Shown here: positions 11,365 through 31,555 of the stretch, one piece after another | How the letters are laid out: each line of letters opens with the position of its first letter | How positions within the stretch are numbered: the stretch's first letter is position 1 | Assembly: GCA_029781045.1 (NCBI GenBank) | Contig: JAKOXL010000007.1 | Span: 1-64,000, forward strand | Reading direction: 5' to 3' | Source: Bacillota bacterium | Lineage (GTDB): Bacteria > Bacillota > UBA994 > UBA5500 | DNA: 64,000 bases | Notes under the pieces: model-generated | What the model was told of the DNA's origin: nothing | Seen by the model: only the letters and a program-made list of their open reading frames with translations | The model's database searches: none | Made by a program: the position numbers and the translations under genes

Positions 11365-12438
11365 TCAAAACCTATCTTCTCGCCTAGGGTTGATTGGTGT
11401 TAACACAATTTGATAGAGGTCTTTTGCCTGCAAATGGGTGACTAAGCACTGACAACATGCTTGGTAGATATCGGGAGTAATCTTAGGCTGTTGGGCAAAA
11501 TCCTTACAAAATTCTTCCCACGTGGGAACTCGAGCCTGCCTATCTCTTCCCCAGGCCACTCGGCGGTGAAGGCCTGACTGCCAGCAAACGGCCTGGTAGA
11601 AACAGCGTGAACACAATGAGATTAGTTGGGCCACACTTACATGCCCCAAACTGCTGTAGTAAACCAGCCGCCAATGGCGGGCCCAGTTGAGCACATAGAG
11701 TGGGGTAAGGATCGCCAGGCCGATGGCCCCTACTAGATGCAGATCTGCTATTACCTGGCCGAAGAAGAACCGCTTTATAAGCAGCACCACTAGAGGCATA
11801 GTGCCCAACAACAAGAGGATATAACGGGAACATAAAACCCGCCTGAGTTTCCGGGGAATCTCAGGCAAGGGCCAGTCGCCCGGATCCAAGCGTGGCAAGT
11901 GGGGTAACAGAGCCAACTCGATCTCCCGCCGCTCATCCTCATCTTTAAAGGGTATCGCTTCTACCCAATTGCCTGTCTTGCTCACCAACACAAAACTCTT
12001 GGGCGAATCGGCAGACAGCAGATAGCCGGCTAGGTTTCCCCATGTTACCACCATCCGAGCATTGGGGTAGAAGCCGACTACACCGATACGCCCTAACAAC
12101 AGTTCATGACGGCAAAACAGTGTCCAAGCTAATAGGCCTCCAAAACCTAGGCCGAGAACCACTCGACTGAGGAGCAAACCATTATCTATGGGGGCTAACA
12201 TGGCCACCAAGAACCACAGCCAGAGCAAAGCGGCGGCCACCCAAGTCACCTGCCAAAAGGGCCGCTTGACTCGATATTCGGCTCGCAGGCGCTCATACCA
12301 GTGAGCCACCACCACATAACGTAAAGGATGCATATAGCGAGGCATTATCTGCACCGGATTAGCAACTAAAACGAATAAAACCCCCAAAGCCAAACCCAGC
12401 ATAGCTATCATTAGACCCATAAATCGCGTCACTCCCAT
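11365..12438 (-). CDS. Unknown multi-pass membrane protein
   Basis: 357 residues that I do not recognise. Hydrophobic segments occur at about 4-26, 60-82, 88-105, 208-228 and 235-252. Between them is a soluble loop of roughly 100 residues with GNWVEAIPFKDEDERREIELALLPHLP-like content (about 155-182), resembling a PH-like bacterial membrane domain in layout only. The C-terminal 100 residues are soluble and cysteine-rich (several Cys between about 277 and 335). The gene stands alone, divergent from the MCP-fusion operon and 142 bases or more from the ABC-F leader. Start ATG at 12438. The function is unknown. Confidence 0.6.
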   Translation of the reverse strand: MGVTRFMGLMIAMLGLALGVLFVLVANPVQIMPRYMHPLRYVVVAHWYERLRAEYRVKRPFWQVTWVAAALLWLWFLVAMLAPIDNGLLLSRVVLGLGFGGLLAWTLFCRHELLLGRIGVVGFYPNARMVVTWGNLAGYLLSADSPKSFVLVSKTGNWVEAIPFKDEDERREIELALLPHLPRLDPGDWPLPEIPRKLRRVLCSRYILLLLGTMPLVVLLIKRFFFGQVIADLHLVGAIGLAILTPLYVLNWARHWRLVYYSSLGHVSVAQLISLCSRCFYQAVCWQSGLHRRVAWGRDRQARVPTWEEFCKDFAQQPKITPDIYQACCQCLVTHLQAKDLYQIVLTPINPRREDRF

Positions 12439-12545: not shown

Positions 12546-12573
12546 TAAACTGATGATACAAAAAAGGCAATAT
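12546..12573 (+). promoter_or_regulatory. Possible sigma-D (flagellar/chemotaxis) promoter
   Basis: TAAA (12546-12549) and GGCAATAT (12566-12573) are 16 bases apart. Compared with the Bacillus sigma-D pattern TAAA-N14-16-GCCGATAT, 10 of 12 positions agree. It lies 23 bases upstream of a gene encoding a chemotaxis signalling domain, which makes the match more credible. No good sigma-A promoter is seen in the same gap. Confidence 0.45.
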
Positions 12574-12596
12574 TTATCCGGAAAAGAGGAATGCAG

Positions 12597-15110
12597 ATGA
12601 GTTGGTTTAGCCGCATTCGGAAAGAGGTTACGACAGATGTCAAGACCGAGCCCGTGCTTGAGATACAAGAAAACGGGAACCAACCGAATGCCGAAAGAAT
12701 GAGAAAGGCTAGGCATCTACAACTCTCGGTAGCCAAAGTCAACTATGGCGCCAAGCTGGTAGAGGCTGCCACCAAGCAATTGATGAATGTGATGGCGACG
12801 ATTAACGAGCAAACGGCTAAGCAACAGGCCGCCACCAGCCAAGCAGCAGCTATTATTACTGAACTCAGTGCTTTTAGTCAAGAGGTGGCTGCTTCCGTCA
12901 ACGAGGTGGGTAGCAGCAGCCAGCATAGTGCGGCAGCCTTACGCCAAGGCAAGGACTCGGTCCAGCAGTCGGTAGACTTTATCAACCAGATGCAAGATAC
13001 GGTAACAGCCAACGCGCAGGCAGTGCGTCAGCTGGTGGAGCAAACCATGGAAATCGACCGCTTTGTGGCCAGTATTCGAGACATTGCGAGCCAAACCAAC
13101 TTACTGGCCCTGAACGCAGCCATAGAGGCAGCTCGGGCCGGCAGCGAAGGTCGTGGCTTTGCCGTAGTGGCCAACGAAGTTAAGAGTCTAGCTGAAACCA
13201 GTGCCGAGTCGGCCGTGCAGATTAGCCGAATGTTGGAAGCTATCAAGGCCGAGGCCGAAGTTACAATAAAGACAATGGAAAACAGCGTTAACGCAGTGGT
13301 TGAAGGCTGCCGTCTCATTACCGAGACTGGTAAGGCTCTCGATGACATAATGAACACGGTGGCAGAAACGACTGCTCTCGTGGAAGAAATTAGTCAGGCT
13401 GTCAGCCAGCAGGCCAAGAACAACGAGCGACTAATGCAGGTCACTGAGGAGATGCAGAAGGTGCTGGAGCGAGCCGCCTTCTACGTGGAAACGGCTGCTT
13501 TTGACACGGAACAGCAACGCACCTCCATGCAAGCCTTACTGCAGGTGACTGAAGATCTCAATCAAATCGAGCAGGAATTACGACAGATAATGCCAGTCCA
13601 AGACAGTCAAGAGAAGGAAACCTATGTGGCCGGCCTGCCACAAGATCCGGTGACATTGGATCCAGCCCTTTCCCGCGACTCCAACTCTAACCATGTTATT
13701 CGGGAGATCTGTGTCGGGCTACTGTCGCAAGGCGAAGATGGCAACCCTGTACCCGGCATAGCCGCCAACTGGCATCTGGAAGACGACGGGCGTACTTACA
13801 CCTTCTTGCTGCGCTCCGATGCCTATTTCCACAATGGACGCCAAGTGACAGCTGACGATGCCAAGTTTTCTTTGGAAAGATTGGCTGCCCCCGGCAGCAA
13901 GTCCCCCCATGGGGGCCTCATTCAAAGTATCGAAGGCGTTACCGATTTTGCCCAAGGTAAGGCCAGTCACATTTCTGGAATCAAGGTATTGGGCAAGCAT
14001 AAACTGTCTATTACTCTTGAAACACCCAATCTCATATTCCTGCACAATCTGGCCAACACGGCAACAGCCATTGTTCCCCGGGAAGAGGTGTTGGCCCGGG
14101 GCGACGACTTCGCCCGCCAACCGGTGGGTGCTGGTCCCTTCGTGTTTAAGCATTGGCATCCCGGTCAGGAAATTCTTCTGGAGGCCAATGAGCGCTATTT
14201 TGAAGGGCGCCCTTATGTGGATGAAGTGCGCTATCGGATCTATGCCGGAAACGATGCTATGGTAGAAGGTTTCTTGCGAGGAGAAATAGGACATTTGCGG
14301 GTAGATGGTAACAGCTATAACCAAGTGGCCGACCACCCGATCTATAGCAAACTGATGACTGAGTTACAACCTGAAGACATTCAGTATTGTGCTCTAATGA
14401 CCAACAAACCTCCCTTTGATAACAAGCTTATGAGGCAAGCGGCCTGCCATGCCTTTAACCGAGAGAAATATCTGCAAGAGCAACTAGCCGGGAGGGCCAT
14501 CCTATCCACTGGCCCCTTACCCAACTACTTTACGGAAGGCGTGGCAATGGGGTATCGTTACGACCCGACCAGGGCAAAAGCTCTCCTGGCCGAGGCCGGT
14601 TATCCGCAAGGCTACCCGGAAGAAGTGATCTTACACGTGCGGGCCAACAATCAAGAGCAGGAAGCAAGAGCAAAAGCTATTGCCCACGACTTAGAGCAGG
14701 TTGGATTCCGCATCAAGATAGTAACCATCCCGTGGACGGAAATGGTCAAACCGGAGACCATGGCTAAATGCCATATGTTCCTCATGGGAGCGTCGGGTGG
14801 CCACGCTGAACCGATGACCTTCCTAGAACCCTATTTTCACTCGCGCGGCATCGGTAAGGGCAACCGCGTGGCCTATAGCAATGCCCAAGTAGATCAACTC
14901 TTGGATAAGATCCCTACCCTTGCCAATTTTGAACAAAGAAAAGCAATCTATTTTCAGGTCGCGCAGATAATCGCCGAAGATGCTCCTTGGATGTTCCTAT
15001 ATCAACCTCTCTACTACATGGTATGGCAACCCAGTGTCAAGGGAGTGCGGGTAGATCGCAGTGGTGCCGTCCGCCTGAAGAATGTGTGGTTGGACCGACA
15101 AGACTCGTGA
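12597..15110 (+). CDS. Soluble chemotaxis receptor domain fused to a family 5 solute-binding domain (paralog 1)
   Basis: 837 residues. After a short basic start (MSWFSRIRKEV), residues about 38-333 form a long helical MCP signalling domain. The conserved hairpin tip (IRDIASQTNLLALNAAIEAA to GRGFAVVANEVKSLA) lies at about 160-200 and contacts CheA/CheW. From about 343 to the end is a complete SBP_bac_5 oligopeptide-binding-type domain: DPVTLDPALS, then YTFLLRSDAYFHNGRQVTA, then PPFDNKLMRQAACHAFNRE. No signal peptide or membrane segment is visible, so both halves should be cytoplasmic. I infer a receptor that senses a peptide-like ligand inside the cell. ATG 12597 is chosen over 12591 because AGAGGA lies 6 bases before it and the paralog starts MNWFKRK. 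It is followed after 22 bases by its paralog. Confidence 0.88.
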   Translation: MSWFSRIRKEVTTDVKTEPVLEIQENGNQPNAERMRKARHLQLSVAKVNYGAKLVEAATKQLMNVMATINEQTAKQQAATSQAAAIITELSAFSQEVAASVNEVGSSSQHSAAALRQGKDSVQQSVDFINQMQDTVTANAQAVRQLVEQTMEIDRFVASIRDIASQTNLLALNAAIEAARAGSEGRGFAVVANEVKSLAETSAESAVQISRMLEAIKAEAEVTIKTMENSVNAVVEGCRLITETGKALDDIMNTVAETTALVEEISQAVSQQAKNNERLMQVTEEMQKVLERAAFYVETAAFDTEQQRTSMQALLQVTEDLNQIEQELRQIMPVQDSQEKETYVAGLPQDPVTLDPALSRDSNSNHVIREICVGLLSQGEDGNPVPGIAANWHLEDDGRTYTFLLRSDAYFHNGRQVTADDAKFSLERLAAPGSKSPHGGLIQSIEGVTDFAQGKASHISGIKVLGKHKLSITLETPNLIFLHNLANTATAIVPREEVLARGDDFARQPVGAGPFVFKHWHPGQEILLEANERYFEGRPYVDEVRYRIYAGNDAMVEGFLRGEIGHLRVDGNSYNQVADHPIYSKLMTELQPEDIQYCALMTNKPPFDNKLMRQAACHAFNREKYLQEQLAGRAILSTGPLPNYFTEGVAMGYRYDPTRAKALLAEAGYPQGYPEEVILHVRANNQEQEARAKAIAHDLEQVGFRIKIVTIPWTEMVKPETMAKCHMFLMGASGGHAEPMTFLEPYFHSRGIGKGNRVAYSNAQVDQLLDKIPTLANFEQRKAIYFQVAQIIAEDAPWMFLYQPLYYMVWQPSVKGVRVDRSGAVRLKNVWLDRQDS

Positions 15111-15132
15111 TTAACATAGGAGGAGTGACAAC

Positions 15133-17655
15133 ATGAACTGGTTTAAACGCAAGGTAGTAGCTACATCATCGCCTACAACAGAAGTTAAACCTGAATTAGG
15201 ACCAGGAGTTGACCTTTCTACCCAACCACTAAGGCAAGAAGAACTGACCCGCAGCGCACGGCGTCTTCGTACGGCCGTGGAGAAAACCATCAACAGCGCC
15301 GATTTGGTAGAACAGACAACCCATCAACTCATGGCTGTAATGCGCACTATTAGCCAGCAGGTGGAGGTTCAGCAAAGAGCCACTGAACAGGCGGCAGCCA
15401 TTATCAGTGAGCTGGGCGCTTTCAGTCAACAAGTTACGGCCTCGGTTAACGAAGTAGGAAACAGCAGTCAGGAAAGCGTGGCCGCCCTGACAGAGGGTAA
15501 AGAGGCCGTGCGCCGGTCCATTGAGTTCATCACCAGTATGCAAGAGACAGTTGCCGAGAATGCCGCCGCTGTTCAGCATCTGGTGGATCAGACAATGGGC
15601 ATAGAAAACTTTGTGGCTACCATCCGTGATATAGCCAGCCAGACCAATCTGCTAGCCCTCAATGCAGCCATAGAAGCCGCCAGAGCTGGCGCCGAAGGAC
15701 GTGGCTTCGCTGTCGTCGCCAATGAAGTAAAGAGCCTGGCAGAAACCAGCGCCGCATCGGCGGTACAGATTAGCCGTCTTTTGGAGAAGATCAAGCAGGA
15801 AGCAGCGTTGACCATCGAAACCATGCAAAACAGCATCAGCGCTGTAGAAGCCGGGTGTCGCAAGATTAACGAGACAGGAAAAGCCCTGGATGAGATCATG
15901 GGCACTGTGGCAGAAACGACAGCTATCGTGCAGGAGATTAGCCAGGCGGTTCTCCAGCAATCACAAAACAACGAGCGTTTGGTACAGGTAACGGAAGACA
16001 TGCGTGCCGTTCTGGAGAATGCCGCATTCTATATTGAAGCTGCAGCCTTCGAAACGGAGCAACAGCGGGCAGCCATGCAAACCCTCCTGCAAGTAACAGA
16101 GGACCTTAGGACTATTGAAGCCGAACTGGCAGCTGCCTTGCCTACCGCCGAACGGCTGGAGCCAGAAACCTACTTCTATGGATTGCCTCAGGATCCGGTC
16201 ACTCTCGACCCGGCCCGCTCAACCGATGGCAATGCCAATAATCTTATTAACCTTATCTTCTCTGGACTCCTTCGCTTAGATGAGGCTGGCAAGCCTCGCC
16301 CGGACATAGCCACCACTTGGCATCTGGAAGATGAGGGACGTACCTATACTTTCAAACTCCGCTCCAATGCCTACTTTCACACTGGGCGCCCAGTGGAGGC
16401 CAGTGATGTCAAATACACTCTGGAGCGACTGGCTGCGCCGTCAACCAATGCGGCCCACAAAGGGCTAGTACTTGGTATTGAAGGAGCCCTCGAGTTCAGT
16501 ACCGGCAAAGCCAGTGAAATCAGCGGTATCAGAATCCGAGGCCGAAATGAAATCTCCATAACCCTTTGTGAACCTAACCTCATGTTCCTCTATAACATGG
16601 CCCACATAGGTGCCAGTATCGTACCACGAGAGGTGGTAGAAAAGCTGGGGGCAGAGTTCGCTAGACGTCCGATAGGTGCTGGCGCCTTCGCCTTCCACAG
16701 CTGGATCCCTGGTCAAGAACTGATCCTTACGGCCCACGAAAAGTATCATGAAGGCCGACCGCACGTGGACAGGATTCATTGCCGTATCTACGCGGGCGCC
16801 GATGCTTTAGAAGCCGGGTTCCTACGAGGAGAAGTGGGACATGCCCGTTTGGACGGACGAGGCTATAACAAGGTTAAGCAAGACCCTATACTCGGACCTT
16901 TGTGTGCAAAAATCGAGCCGGTTGACACCCAGTATTGTGGTCTCATCTGCACCAAACCACCTTTTGATAACAAACTGGTGCGCCAAGCCGTCAACTACGC
17001 GGTTGATCGGGAGACCTACCTACAAGAAGTCTTAGAAGGACATGCGGTGCTCAGCGAAGGGCCTTTGCCGCCTTACCTGCTAGCTGGGCAGACCAACGGT
17101 GGCTATCGCTATGACCTTAATCGAGCCAGAGAACTGATGCGGGAAGCCGGTTACCCCAACGGTTATCCCCAGCCATTAATACTTCACGTGCGAGCCAATA
17201 ACGAAGAGCAGGCAAAACGCGCCGAATACATCGCTGCCGCCCTGGCCAAGATCGGGTTGCAAGTGGAGATTGTGGTTTTACCGTGGACCGAACTGGTCAA
17301 GCAGGAGAACATGGCCAAGTGTCACATGTTCCTAATGGGGGCTATCGGAGGACATGCCGAAGGCAAGCGCTATCTGGATCAGTGGTTCCACTCCCGCTTT
17401 ATCGGGGCCAGTAACTTTACGGGCTATAGCAATCCGGAGTTGGATAAATTGATCGATCAAGCAGAAGTTATCGCTAACCCAGAGAAACGCAGAGAAATGT
17501 ACATTAGAGCTCATCGTCTAGTTCAAGAAGATGCCCCTTGGCTGTTCCTCTTCCATCCAGTGTACTACATGGCCCGCCAACCCTATGTTAAGGGCCTGCG
17601 CTACAACGCTGGCGGCACCGTCTTTGTCCAGCATCTCTGGTTAAACAAGAGATAA
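15133..17655 (+). CDS. Soluble chemotaxis receptor domain fused to a family 5 solute-binding domain (paralog 2)
   Basis: 840 residues and collinear with the preceding gene throughout, including the near-identical MCP tip (about 165-205) and the SBP_bac_5 domain from about 345. It again lacks a signal peptide and transmembrane helices. The variable parts are the first 50 residues and the ligand-domain surface, as expected of duplicates that diverged in ligand specificity. The glutamate/glutamine-rich helices flanking the tip could hold methylation sites. Start ATG has an ATAGGAGGAGTG ribosome site. It ends 12 bases before a strong terminator, so the two paralogs form a two-gene operon. No che genes or peptide permease genes lie next to them. 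Confidence 0.88.
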   Translation: MNWFKRKVVATSSPTTEVKPELGPGVDLSTQPLRQEELTRSARRLRTAVEKTINSADLVEQTTHQLMAVMRTISQQVEVQQRATEQAAAIISELGAFSQQVTASVNEVGNSSQESVAALTEGKEAVRRSIEFITSMQETVAENAAAVQHLVDQTMGIENFVATIRDIASQTNLLALNAAIEAARAGAEGRGFAVVANEVKSLAETSAASAVQISRLLEKIKQEAALTIETMQNSISAVEAGCRKINETGKALDEIMGTVAETTAIVQEISQAVLQQSQNNERLVQVTEDMRAVLENAAFYIEAAAFETEQQRAAMQTLLQVTEDLRTIEAELAAALPTAERLEPETYFYGLPQDPVTLDPARSTDGNANNLINLIFSGLLRLDEAGKPRPDIATTWHLEDEGRTYTFKLRSNAYFHTGRPVEASDVKYTLERLAAPSTNAAHKGLVLGIEGALEFSTGKASEISGIRIRGRNEISITLCEPNLMFLYNMAHIGASIVPREVVEKLGAEFARRPIGAGAFAFHSWIPGQELILTAHEKYHEGRPHVDRIHCRIYAGADALEAGFLRGEVGHARLDGRGYNKVKQDPILGPLCAKIEPVDTQYCGLICTKPPFDNKLVRQAVNYAVDRETYLQEVLEGHAVLSEGPLPPYLLAGQTNGGYRYDLNRARELMREAGYPNGYPQPLILHVRANNEEQAKRAEYIAAALAKIGLQVEIVVLPWTELVKQENMAKCHMFLMGAIGGHAEGKRYLDQWFHSRFIGASNFTGYSNPELDKLIDQAEVIANPEKRREMYIRAHRLVQEDAPWLFLFHPVYYMARQPYVKGLRYNAGGTVFVQHLWLNKR

Positions 17656-29728: not shown

Positions 29729-31555
29729 CTAGTGTCGCATCCCCTTCTGCATCTCTAAAAGCGACTGTAGTTGCTGTAGCAGTTGTTTGCGTTCATCTCT
29801 ATCTTTCTCTGACCGTAGCCTCTCTTGTACTTCAGTAATCGATCGTTTTATGGCTAGGTGTCTTAATTTATCAAGACAATCTCGCGCTAACACGGCGGCC
29901 TTCTCTAATTCTATATTCTCCGTCCACATAACCTGCGCCAACCGCTTAGCAATTTCTGGCTTATCTATTCGCTCCAATAGTCTCCGCCCATCCAAGACGT
30001 ATCCTTCCTGCAACTCTTGCAATAGTAGTGCCACTAGTTCACGATCGACCGGGTAGGCATACACATCCAACTCCTGCCAAGCCACAAGCAGCTCTCGCCC
30101 ATCAACGTGGTTACCAAGGATTAGGTTTAGTAGTTTGTCTTCAGCAATCTGATAGCCTCGCAAAACCGGGTCAGGTTCAGCTACTTTAGCAAGTTCCACA
30201 CTTCTAGTAGTATTCCTGCTATTGCCAAGTTTATCCCTATATTGGGCTCTTGATGCCTGCCCTTCTTTAGCCAACTCGGCTAAGACAGCGCTTTCCGGCA
30301 CCTGCAACTCATAGGCCATCCTCTGTGCATAGGCGATCTTTGCCACTTCGCTGTCCAACGTGGCCAATACAACAGAGGCAGCCTTGACAAACTGAGACTT
30401 ACCTTCCACGGTACTCAAGTCGTGTTCCTGTCGCAACATAGCTAACTGAAAATCCACTACTGGCTGGGCTTTCCCCAGAATCTCCTGCAAGAAGTACTCG
30501 GAACCCATCTGCCGAAGGCAGTCGTCCGGGTCTTGGCCAATAGGTAGAGTAGCTACACGCACTTGCAAGCCAGCTCTTAATAGAATATCTAATCCTCGCA
30601 AAGCGGCCCGTAGACCTGAACCGTCAGCATCGTAACACAGAATCACCTGATCGGTATAACGCCTTAGTAGTCGTGCTTGCGCCGGGGTAAGGGCCGTTCC
30701 CAACGAGGCTACCACATGGCCAATGCCAAATTGCCAAGCGGAAAGGCAATCCATATACCCTTCTACCAGTACCACATGTCCTGCTTGACGAATAAAGGGA
30801 TTGGCGTAATGAAGACCGAACAAGAGACGTCCTTTATCAAAAAGTTGACTTTCCGGTGAATTCAGGTATTTTGGTAAAGAGTGGTCCAGAACCCGTCCAC
30901 CAAAAGCAACGATACGCCCTCTTTCATCGGAGATGGGTATCATTAGACGGGCGCGAAAGCGGTCATAGTACCCTTCCTGTTGCCGGGGCACAATCAAACC
31001 CAGTTTCACTAAGGGCGCAACTGGTACTCCACTCCGATCTGCTGCCGCCACCAAATTGGTCCAACCAGCAGGAGCATACCCCAACTTCATCGTGTCTACC
31101 AGGTCGGTCGCAATCCCACGTCGGGCCAAATAGTCTCGCGCGGCTTTACCTTCCGGTTGCTTCAACTGCTCATGGAAAAACTGGGCGGCCCACTGGTTGA
31201 CCCGATACAGCAGCTGTCTCTCCTTCTGCTGGGCTCGCACCTCTTTGGATTGGCTGACCGCTTCCGGCAGAGGAATATTAGCACGAACAGCTAGGGCACG
31301 CACTGCTTCCGGAAAGGAAACCTTTGCTGTCTCCATTACGAAGTTGAATACGGTACCACTGGCATGACAACCAAAACAGTAGTACATTTGCTTCTCGGGG
31401 CTGACGCTGAAGGACGGCGTCTTTTCAGCATGGAACGGGCATAAGCCAAGAAAATTGCGTCCACTGCGCTTAAGCTGGACGTGTTCGCCTATCAACTCCA
31501 CTATATCGTTGGCATTACGCACCTGCTCAATAAAGTCATCTGTAAAAAGGGACAT
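29729..31555 (-). CDS. dnaG: DNA primase DnaG
   Basis: 608 residues. The CHC2 zinc finger is at C39, H42, C60 and C63. The central TOPRIM polymerase core has VVLVEGYMDCLSAWQFG and LCYDADGSG, the metal-binding acidic residues. A C-terminal helicase-interacting region follows. It synthesises RNA primers for the replication fork. Start ATG with a GAGGAGAGG site. It is followed by rpoD in the conserved order. No rpsU lies directly in front, unlike in enterobacteria; rpsU is elsewhere in this window. Confidence 0.98.
   Translation of the reverse strand: MSLFTDDFIEQVRNANDIVELIGEHVQLKRSGRNFLGLCPFHAEKTPSFSVSPEKQMYYCFGCHASGTVFNFVMETAKVSFPEAVRALAVRANIPLPEAVSQSKEVRAQQKERQLLYRVNQWAAQFFHEQLKQPEGKAARDYLARRGIATDLVDTMKLGYAPAGWTNLVAAADRSGVPVAPLVKLGLIVPRQQEGYYDRFRARLMIPISDERGRIVAFGGRVLDHSLPKYLNSPESQLFDKGRLLFGLHYANPFIRQAGHVVLVEGYMDCLSAWQFGIGHVVASLGTALTPAQARLLRRYTDQVILCYDADGSGLRAALRGLDILLRAGLQVRVATLPIGQDPDDCLRQMGSEYFLQEILGKAQPVVDFQLAMLRQEHDLSTVEGKSQFVKAASVVLATLDSEVAKIAYAQRMAYELQVPESAVLAELAKEGQASRAQYRDKLGNSRNTTRSVELAKVAEPDPVLRGYQIAEDKLLNLILGNHVDGRELLVAWQELDVYAYPVDRELVALLLQELQEGYVLDGRRLLERIDKPEIAKRLAQVMWTENIELEKAAVLARDCLDKLRHLAIKRSITEVQERLRSEKDRDERKQLLQQLQSLLEMQKGMRH

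Follow-up and report, generated by a model that had tools for sequence, protein, structure and literature searches.

Solute-binding proteins are textbook outside sensors, which signal to receptors through the membrane, and the sensors of cytosolic chemoreceptors are usually PAS, globin, CZB and similar domains, located in H. pylori TlpD at the C-terminal end of the protein. In SgrR of E. coli, which controls transcription, a DNA-binding domain is joined to an SBP_bac_5-like domain that resides in the cytosol. The cytoplasmic chemoreceptors of R. sphaeroides and V. cholerae form cytosolic arrays (PMC3964821). SBP_bac families appear among the ligand-binding domains of archaeal chemoreceptors (PMC9680633), in a list whose consulted passages do not go into family 5, a cytosolic topology or a mechanism. 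Our full-text literature search (SBP_bac_5 with chemoreceptor), in which the coverage of reviews was incomplete, yielded neither a described cytosolic receptor with a 500-residue SBP_bac_5 sensor, nor a characterised chemoreceptor with an SBP-type ligand-binding domain, nor a characterised cytosolic MCP-SBP_bac_5 receptor, in agreement with the initial annotation of the DNA studied here, which knew of no characterised system of this design. While cytosolic chemoreceptors, archaeal SBP_bac sensors and SgrR are thus already known, the new element is a family of predicted cytosolic MCP-SBP_bac_5 fusions.

The window, a stretch of 64,000 nucleotides, was taken from the genome of a Bacillota bacterium (GCA_029781045.1, contig JAKOXL010000007.1, positions 1 to 64,000 of the forward strand). 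It holds two tandem genes, P1 and P2 (Table 1), which had been described as placing a canonical MCP tip before a complete SBP_bac_5 domain, and this description was upheld by profile matches, intact ORFs and tip sequences. Both products match the MCPsignal profile (P1, 9.4e-39; P2, 2e-38) with the canonical tip (QTNLLALNAAIEAARAG), and the SBP_bac_5 profile over nearly its whole length (P1, 1.2e-79, positions 1-366 of 368; P2, 7.9e-74, positions 1-364 of 368). The full-length proteins share 60% identity. As the start of P1 we preferred, with the initial annotation, the ATG at 12597 to position 12591 of the mechanical ORF list, because AGAGGA sits 6 nt before this ATG. The two genes are spaced by 22 bases, with a good ribosome-binding site before P2, and likely form one operon.

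Table 1. Features of the P1-P2 locus and its surroundings, in positions of the window.
Feature	Position	Strand	Remarks
Divergent neighbour of P1, 357-aa membrane-like protein	11365-12438	-	no Pfam match
Possible flagellar sigma-D-like promoter of P1, TAAA-N16-GGCAATAT	12546..12573	+	2 mismatches in -10 box; weak
P1, MCP-SBP_bac_5 fusion receptor	12597..15110	+	837 aa (stop included)
P1 MCP coiled-coil hairpin	12696..13589	+	approximate limits
P1 methylation-site consensus SAFSQEVAAS	12867..12896	+	
P1 canonical receptor tip IRDIASQTNLLALNAAIEAARAG	13074..13142	+	
P1 SBP_bac_5 domain	13617..15107	+	begins about ten residues after the MCP C-arm ends
P1 Gly735, equivalent to Asp436 of E. coli DppA	14799..14801	+	P3 has Asp
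P2, tandem paralogue of P1	15133..17655	+	840 aa; own RBS (GGAGGAGTGACAAC ATG)
P2 MCP coiled-coil hairpin, residues 32-335	15226..16137	+	
P2 methylation-site consensus GAFSQQVTAS	15415..15444	+	
P2 canonical receptor tip	15622..15690	+	
P2 SBP_bac_5 domain	16165..17652	+	
P2 Gly740, equivalent to Asp436 of E. coli DppA	17350..17352	+	
Intrinsic-terminator-like hairpin with T run, 3' of P2	17668..17701	+	read from sequence
Bacterial RNase P RNA class A (RF00010), directly downstream of P2	17718-18071	-	

A hydropathy scan (19-residue window, first 60 residues) found no signal peptide or TM segment in P1 or P2, with peak values of 0.12-0.38 against 2.60 for TM1 of E. coli Tar and 1.54 for the DppA signal peptide, which served as controls. 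The same held for all 16 sequences of the family that were scanned, in which the best 19-residue mean within the first 60 residues was 0.96. Moreover, the frames of P1 and P2 are open for only 6-16 codons 5' of their starts and contain no start codon there, so that a missed TM helix or signal peptide was ruled out and the earlier claim of soluble proteins held. Because they are without TM- or signal peptide-like segments and no upstream start could lengthen their frames, P1 and P2 are most likely cytosolic. They resemble in this respect the cytoplasmic chemoreceptors of R. sphaeroides and V. cholerae and TlpD of H. pylori, with an MCP hairpin free of TM helices for which a CheA/CheW array would be expected.

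The signalling half has the anatomy of an ordinary receptor. The methylation-site consensus is found in P1, P2 and a third fusion of the same genome, P3, and CheR and CheB are encoded in the genome. P2 aligned without gaps around the tip to TM1143, a 44-heptad receptor, and its alignment to a transmembrane dCache receptor encoded in its own genome covers 301 residues with 0 gaps, whereas E. coli Tar in the same alignment was missing 28 residues of the C-arm in two 14-residue blocks. This is as expected between the 36-heptad and 44-heptad classes of MCPs, reportedly distinguished by Alexander and Zhulin in 2007; the symmetric hairpin arms thus fall in the 44H class (Tar, 36H), the fusions are length-matched to the other receptors of the cell, and they should therefore be able to join the same array. 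The AF2 model is of a monomer built from 12 sequences, with pLDDT of about 50 at the receptor tip, so the hairpin assignment rests on homology. Tip sequences are altered in relatives of the f2 family (ADTTRLLSLNAAIEAARAG; ARTTRMLSLNASIEAARYD in one copy), a change that may weaken coupling to CheA in that family. In genus g6 (L031, L032, L033; G014, G011, G008) the receptor tip is eroded (ARTTRMLSLNASIEAARYDEGHGF) in one member of the tandem pair, which is possibly an MCP-SBP fusion drifting from CheA coupling.

The sensor half begins about ten residues beyond the point where ordinary MCPs of the same genome stop. In the AF2 model it forms a complete two-lobe family-5 fold, with pLDDT mostly 80-95, and the structures that match it best in the PDB are those of peptide- and glutathione-binding proteins (E ~1e-40). 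Comparison with orthologues gave pS of 0.74-0.85, synonymous sites being near saturation, and pN of 0.10-0.23, with similar values for the SBP and the MCP half; the SBP half is under strong purifying selection. A degenerate SBP was ruled out by the complete fold together with this selection, and the completeness of the domain assumed in the initial annotation was thus confirmed. DppA, GbpA-HbpA and GsiB share the fold and are homologous to the SBP part of the fusions over its full length, but these proteins are secreted, whereas all members of the fusion family examined are without a signal peptide. Neither a signal peptide nor, among the neighbours read by eye, an ABC permease gene beside the pair was seen, and P1 and P2 are in this respect unlike classical binding proteins of family-5 ABC importers. 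The likeness to SgrR lies in the use of a family-5-type SBP as a fused sensor inside the cell, with a weak profile match (4.9e-13); the fusions differ in having an MCP signalling domain as output, their score is far below the cut-off of the SgrR model (48.6 of 476 bits), and no HTH match to an SgrR-type N-terminal DNA-binding domain was found in P1 or P2.

Arg383 and Asp436 of E. coli DppA (precursor numbering) pair with the carboxyl and amino ends of the peptide. They are the residues swapped in the R383D/D436R structure 8z1z. In an alignment to DppA, the Arg383-equivalent is retained in P1 (nt 14640) and P2 (nt 17191) but Gly stands for Asp436 in both, whereas P3, which matches DppA end to end, has both anchors, and the Asp is likewise retained in the other relatives. 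Since the Asp is lost in P1 and P2, their ligand is probably not an ordinary peptide, and they probably read related compounds without a peptide amino group, while P3 is probably a dipeptide-type sensor. The suggestion that peptides are the ligands therefore seems plausible for P3 and less so for the tandem pair. The paralogues differ most in the SBP part, and in P2 this part has a pN of 0.229 compared with 0.137 for the MCP part, a faster change that fits changing specificity. Both the rate difference and the distribution of the Asp support the proposal that divergence of the copies reflects different ligands.

Full-length MCP-SBP fusions are present in 11 of the 15 genomes of the class, representing four of its seven genera, and also in one genus of another class (two genomes), as judged from a scan of one phylum in which the two best candidates per genome were scored. 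Tandem pairs occur in a second genus too. The relatives of this genus that bear names, UBA5500 and SRR1561995_bin.50, belong to uncultured Bacillota. We built a tree of 42 SBP domains, for which the unfused SBPs are a sample only and some branches are long; in it the 19 fused domains form one clade, separated from the unfused ones by a single branch (SH-aLRT 94), and none of 500 label shuffles gave a value as low as observed. Because the fused domains are set off by a single branch, one origin would be the simplest history. This architecture defines a family that is old and conserved, and it is neither a chance event nor peculiar to this locus. In this genome P3 lies away from the pair (C28:112475-114910, minus strand) with 36% identity to P2 over nearly the full length, and the three fusions make up three of the seven MCPs; in each of three related genomes a fusion is one of two MCPs. 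The genes for CheB, CheA, CheC and CheD are in one operon with flagellar genes (flagellar names read by eye), and CheW and FlhA are also encoded.

We consider it likely that P1 and P2 are cytosolic chemoreceptors which sense solutes inside the cell, after their uptake, and signal to the flagellar CheA pathway. The architecture and its conservation, the array-compatible anatomy, the che and flagellar genes and the purifying selection on both halves are observed, and from these we infer the cytosolic location, the direct binding of a ligand, its class or identity and the coupling. The N-terminal MCP hairpin would dimerise, bind CheW/CheA through its canonical tip and join the same array as the transmembrane receptors of the cell, while the sensor, shifted from its usual outside position to the C-terminus, would expose a family-5 SBP domain to the cytosol. 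A solute brought in by an importer, most simply by ABC importers of the peptide/oligopeptide type, would bind this domain as a small internal solute and induce Venus-flytrap closure, which could change the packing at the hairpin base via the C-terminal arm and shift CheA activity, so that the internal solute pool would set the flagellar swimming bias; methylation would adapt the response. Intracellular sensing by a directly fused SBP, as first proposed from the sequence, appears to be the best reading.

Alternatives to this reading concern the reality of the fusion, the function of the SBP half, the ligand and the location. We give practically no credence to a gene-prediction or assembly artefact in which neighbouring receptor and binding-protein genes were read as one: such genes can adjoin and draft assemblies do mis-join (compare the chimera on contig C9 below), but the junction recurs, with equally short spacing, in more than 10 independent genomes of two classes and at three places in this genome, and the independent assemblies ruled a mis-join out. 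It is improbable that the SBP no longer binds a solute and serves as a structural or protein-docking module, for example in stabilising or positioning a cytosolic receptor array. The loss of a key ligand-anchor residue from P1 and P2 would suit such a role, as would the eroded tips of some relatives, which indicate that parts of these proteins drift; however, the SBP half is constrained about as strongly as the MCP half, the full two-lobe fold is kept, the anchor Asp persists in P3 and other relatives, and divergence between paralogues peaks in the SBP part, as a divergence of specificity predicts.

A stronger competitor, although still the less probable option, is a cytosolic sensor, comparable to SgrR, of a non-peptide metabolite or cofactor (opine-, glutathione-, metal-chelate- or sugar-phosphate-like) instead of a reader of imported peptides. 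Family-5 SBPs bind many non-peptides, the PDB matches including Ni-His, agropinic acid and mannopinic acid-binding structures besides those for glutathione, and P1 and P2 are without the Asp that pairs with the peptide amino terminus; on the other hand, the best PDB match of both P1 and P2 is a peptide-type SBP, and P3 corresponds to DppA over its whole length with both anchors. We regard as somewhat unlikely that the proteins are peripheral membrane receptors, tethered by the N-terminus (MSWFSRIRK, MNWFKRK, MRSIWNRLR, MFKLWMKKRK) to the inner membrane face beside a transmembrane array. A short aromatic/hydrophobic-then-basic start with a net charge of +2 to +4 recurs in most family members, and AF2 shows a short helix at residues 2-8, but the hydrophobic moments are modest (0.09-0.35), pLDDT is below 50 over the first 30 residues, and one relative type (MGGNERTELAKR) is without the motif. 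Such a receptor would still sense inside the cell and is compatible with the preferred reading, from which it differs in location alone. These judgements are not mutually exclusive, since a non-peptide ligand or a peripheral location would alter details and not the core of an intracellular SBP-type chemoreceptor.

If P1 and P2 act as intracellular chemoreceptors, the bacterium may steer its swimming by compounds already taken in, and the fusion family would make it simple to test whether bacteria follow nutrients on the basis of earlier uptake. A conserved soluble fusion would also supply a defined ligand-binding unit for cytosolic chemoreceptors, a class with mostly unknown signals, and a natural design in which the input reaches the MCP hairpin from the C-terminal arm. 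More tentatively, a whole lineage of motile Bacillota might steer largely by its internal nutrient pool, in a “post-uptake taxis” on specific peptides or related solutes, with Venus-flytrap domains transferred from the cell surface to the cytosol and connected in reverse, by way of the C-terminal hairpin arm, to the ordinary CheA array.

Regarding expression, a sigma-D-like element lies at -51 of P1, in a stretch common to two sister genomes whose versions deviate more from the consensus, and neither P3 nor any further MCP gene tested showed a similar site; flagellar co-regulation of P1 is thus weakly indicated. No conserved gene neighbourhood pointing to a ligand was seen across the fusion families when neighbours were read by eye. 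The 357-aa membrane-like protein adjoins P1 in one sister genome too (L017). Among the other receptor-like genes of the genome (G000), one on contig C40 (L088:7010-7870, minus) has a soluble product of 286 aa, in which an NAD-binding Rossmann stretch resembling Gfo/Idh/MocA (weak match, 3e-4) lies at the N-terminus and is combined with an MCP signalling domain of reduced length. This product might be another type of cytosolic receptor, one that responds to redox or NAD state, and several related genomes have MCP matches in open frames of about the same size (275-337 aa). On contig C57 (L089:5053-6786) a CZB/HAMP chemoreceptor is broken into two frames of 283 and 275 aa, possibly by a frameshift or a sequencing error. 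Furthermore, on contig C9 (~29861-31006; L006:823-2961, minus) the greater part of a lipoprotein SBP_bac_5 is fused in frame, within 712 aa, to the central portion of an OppF-like ABC ATPase, a chimera that would reflect either deletion of intervening permease genes or a contig mis-join.
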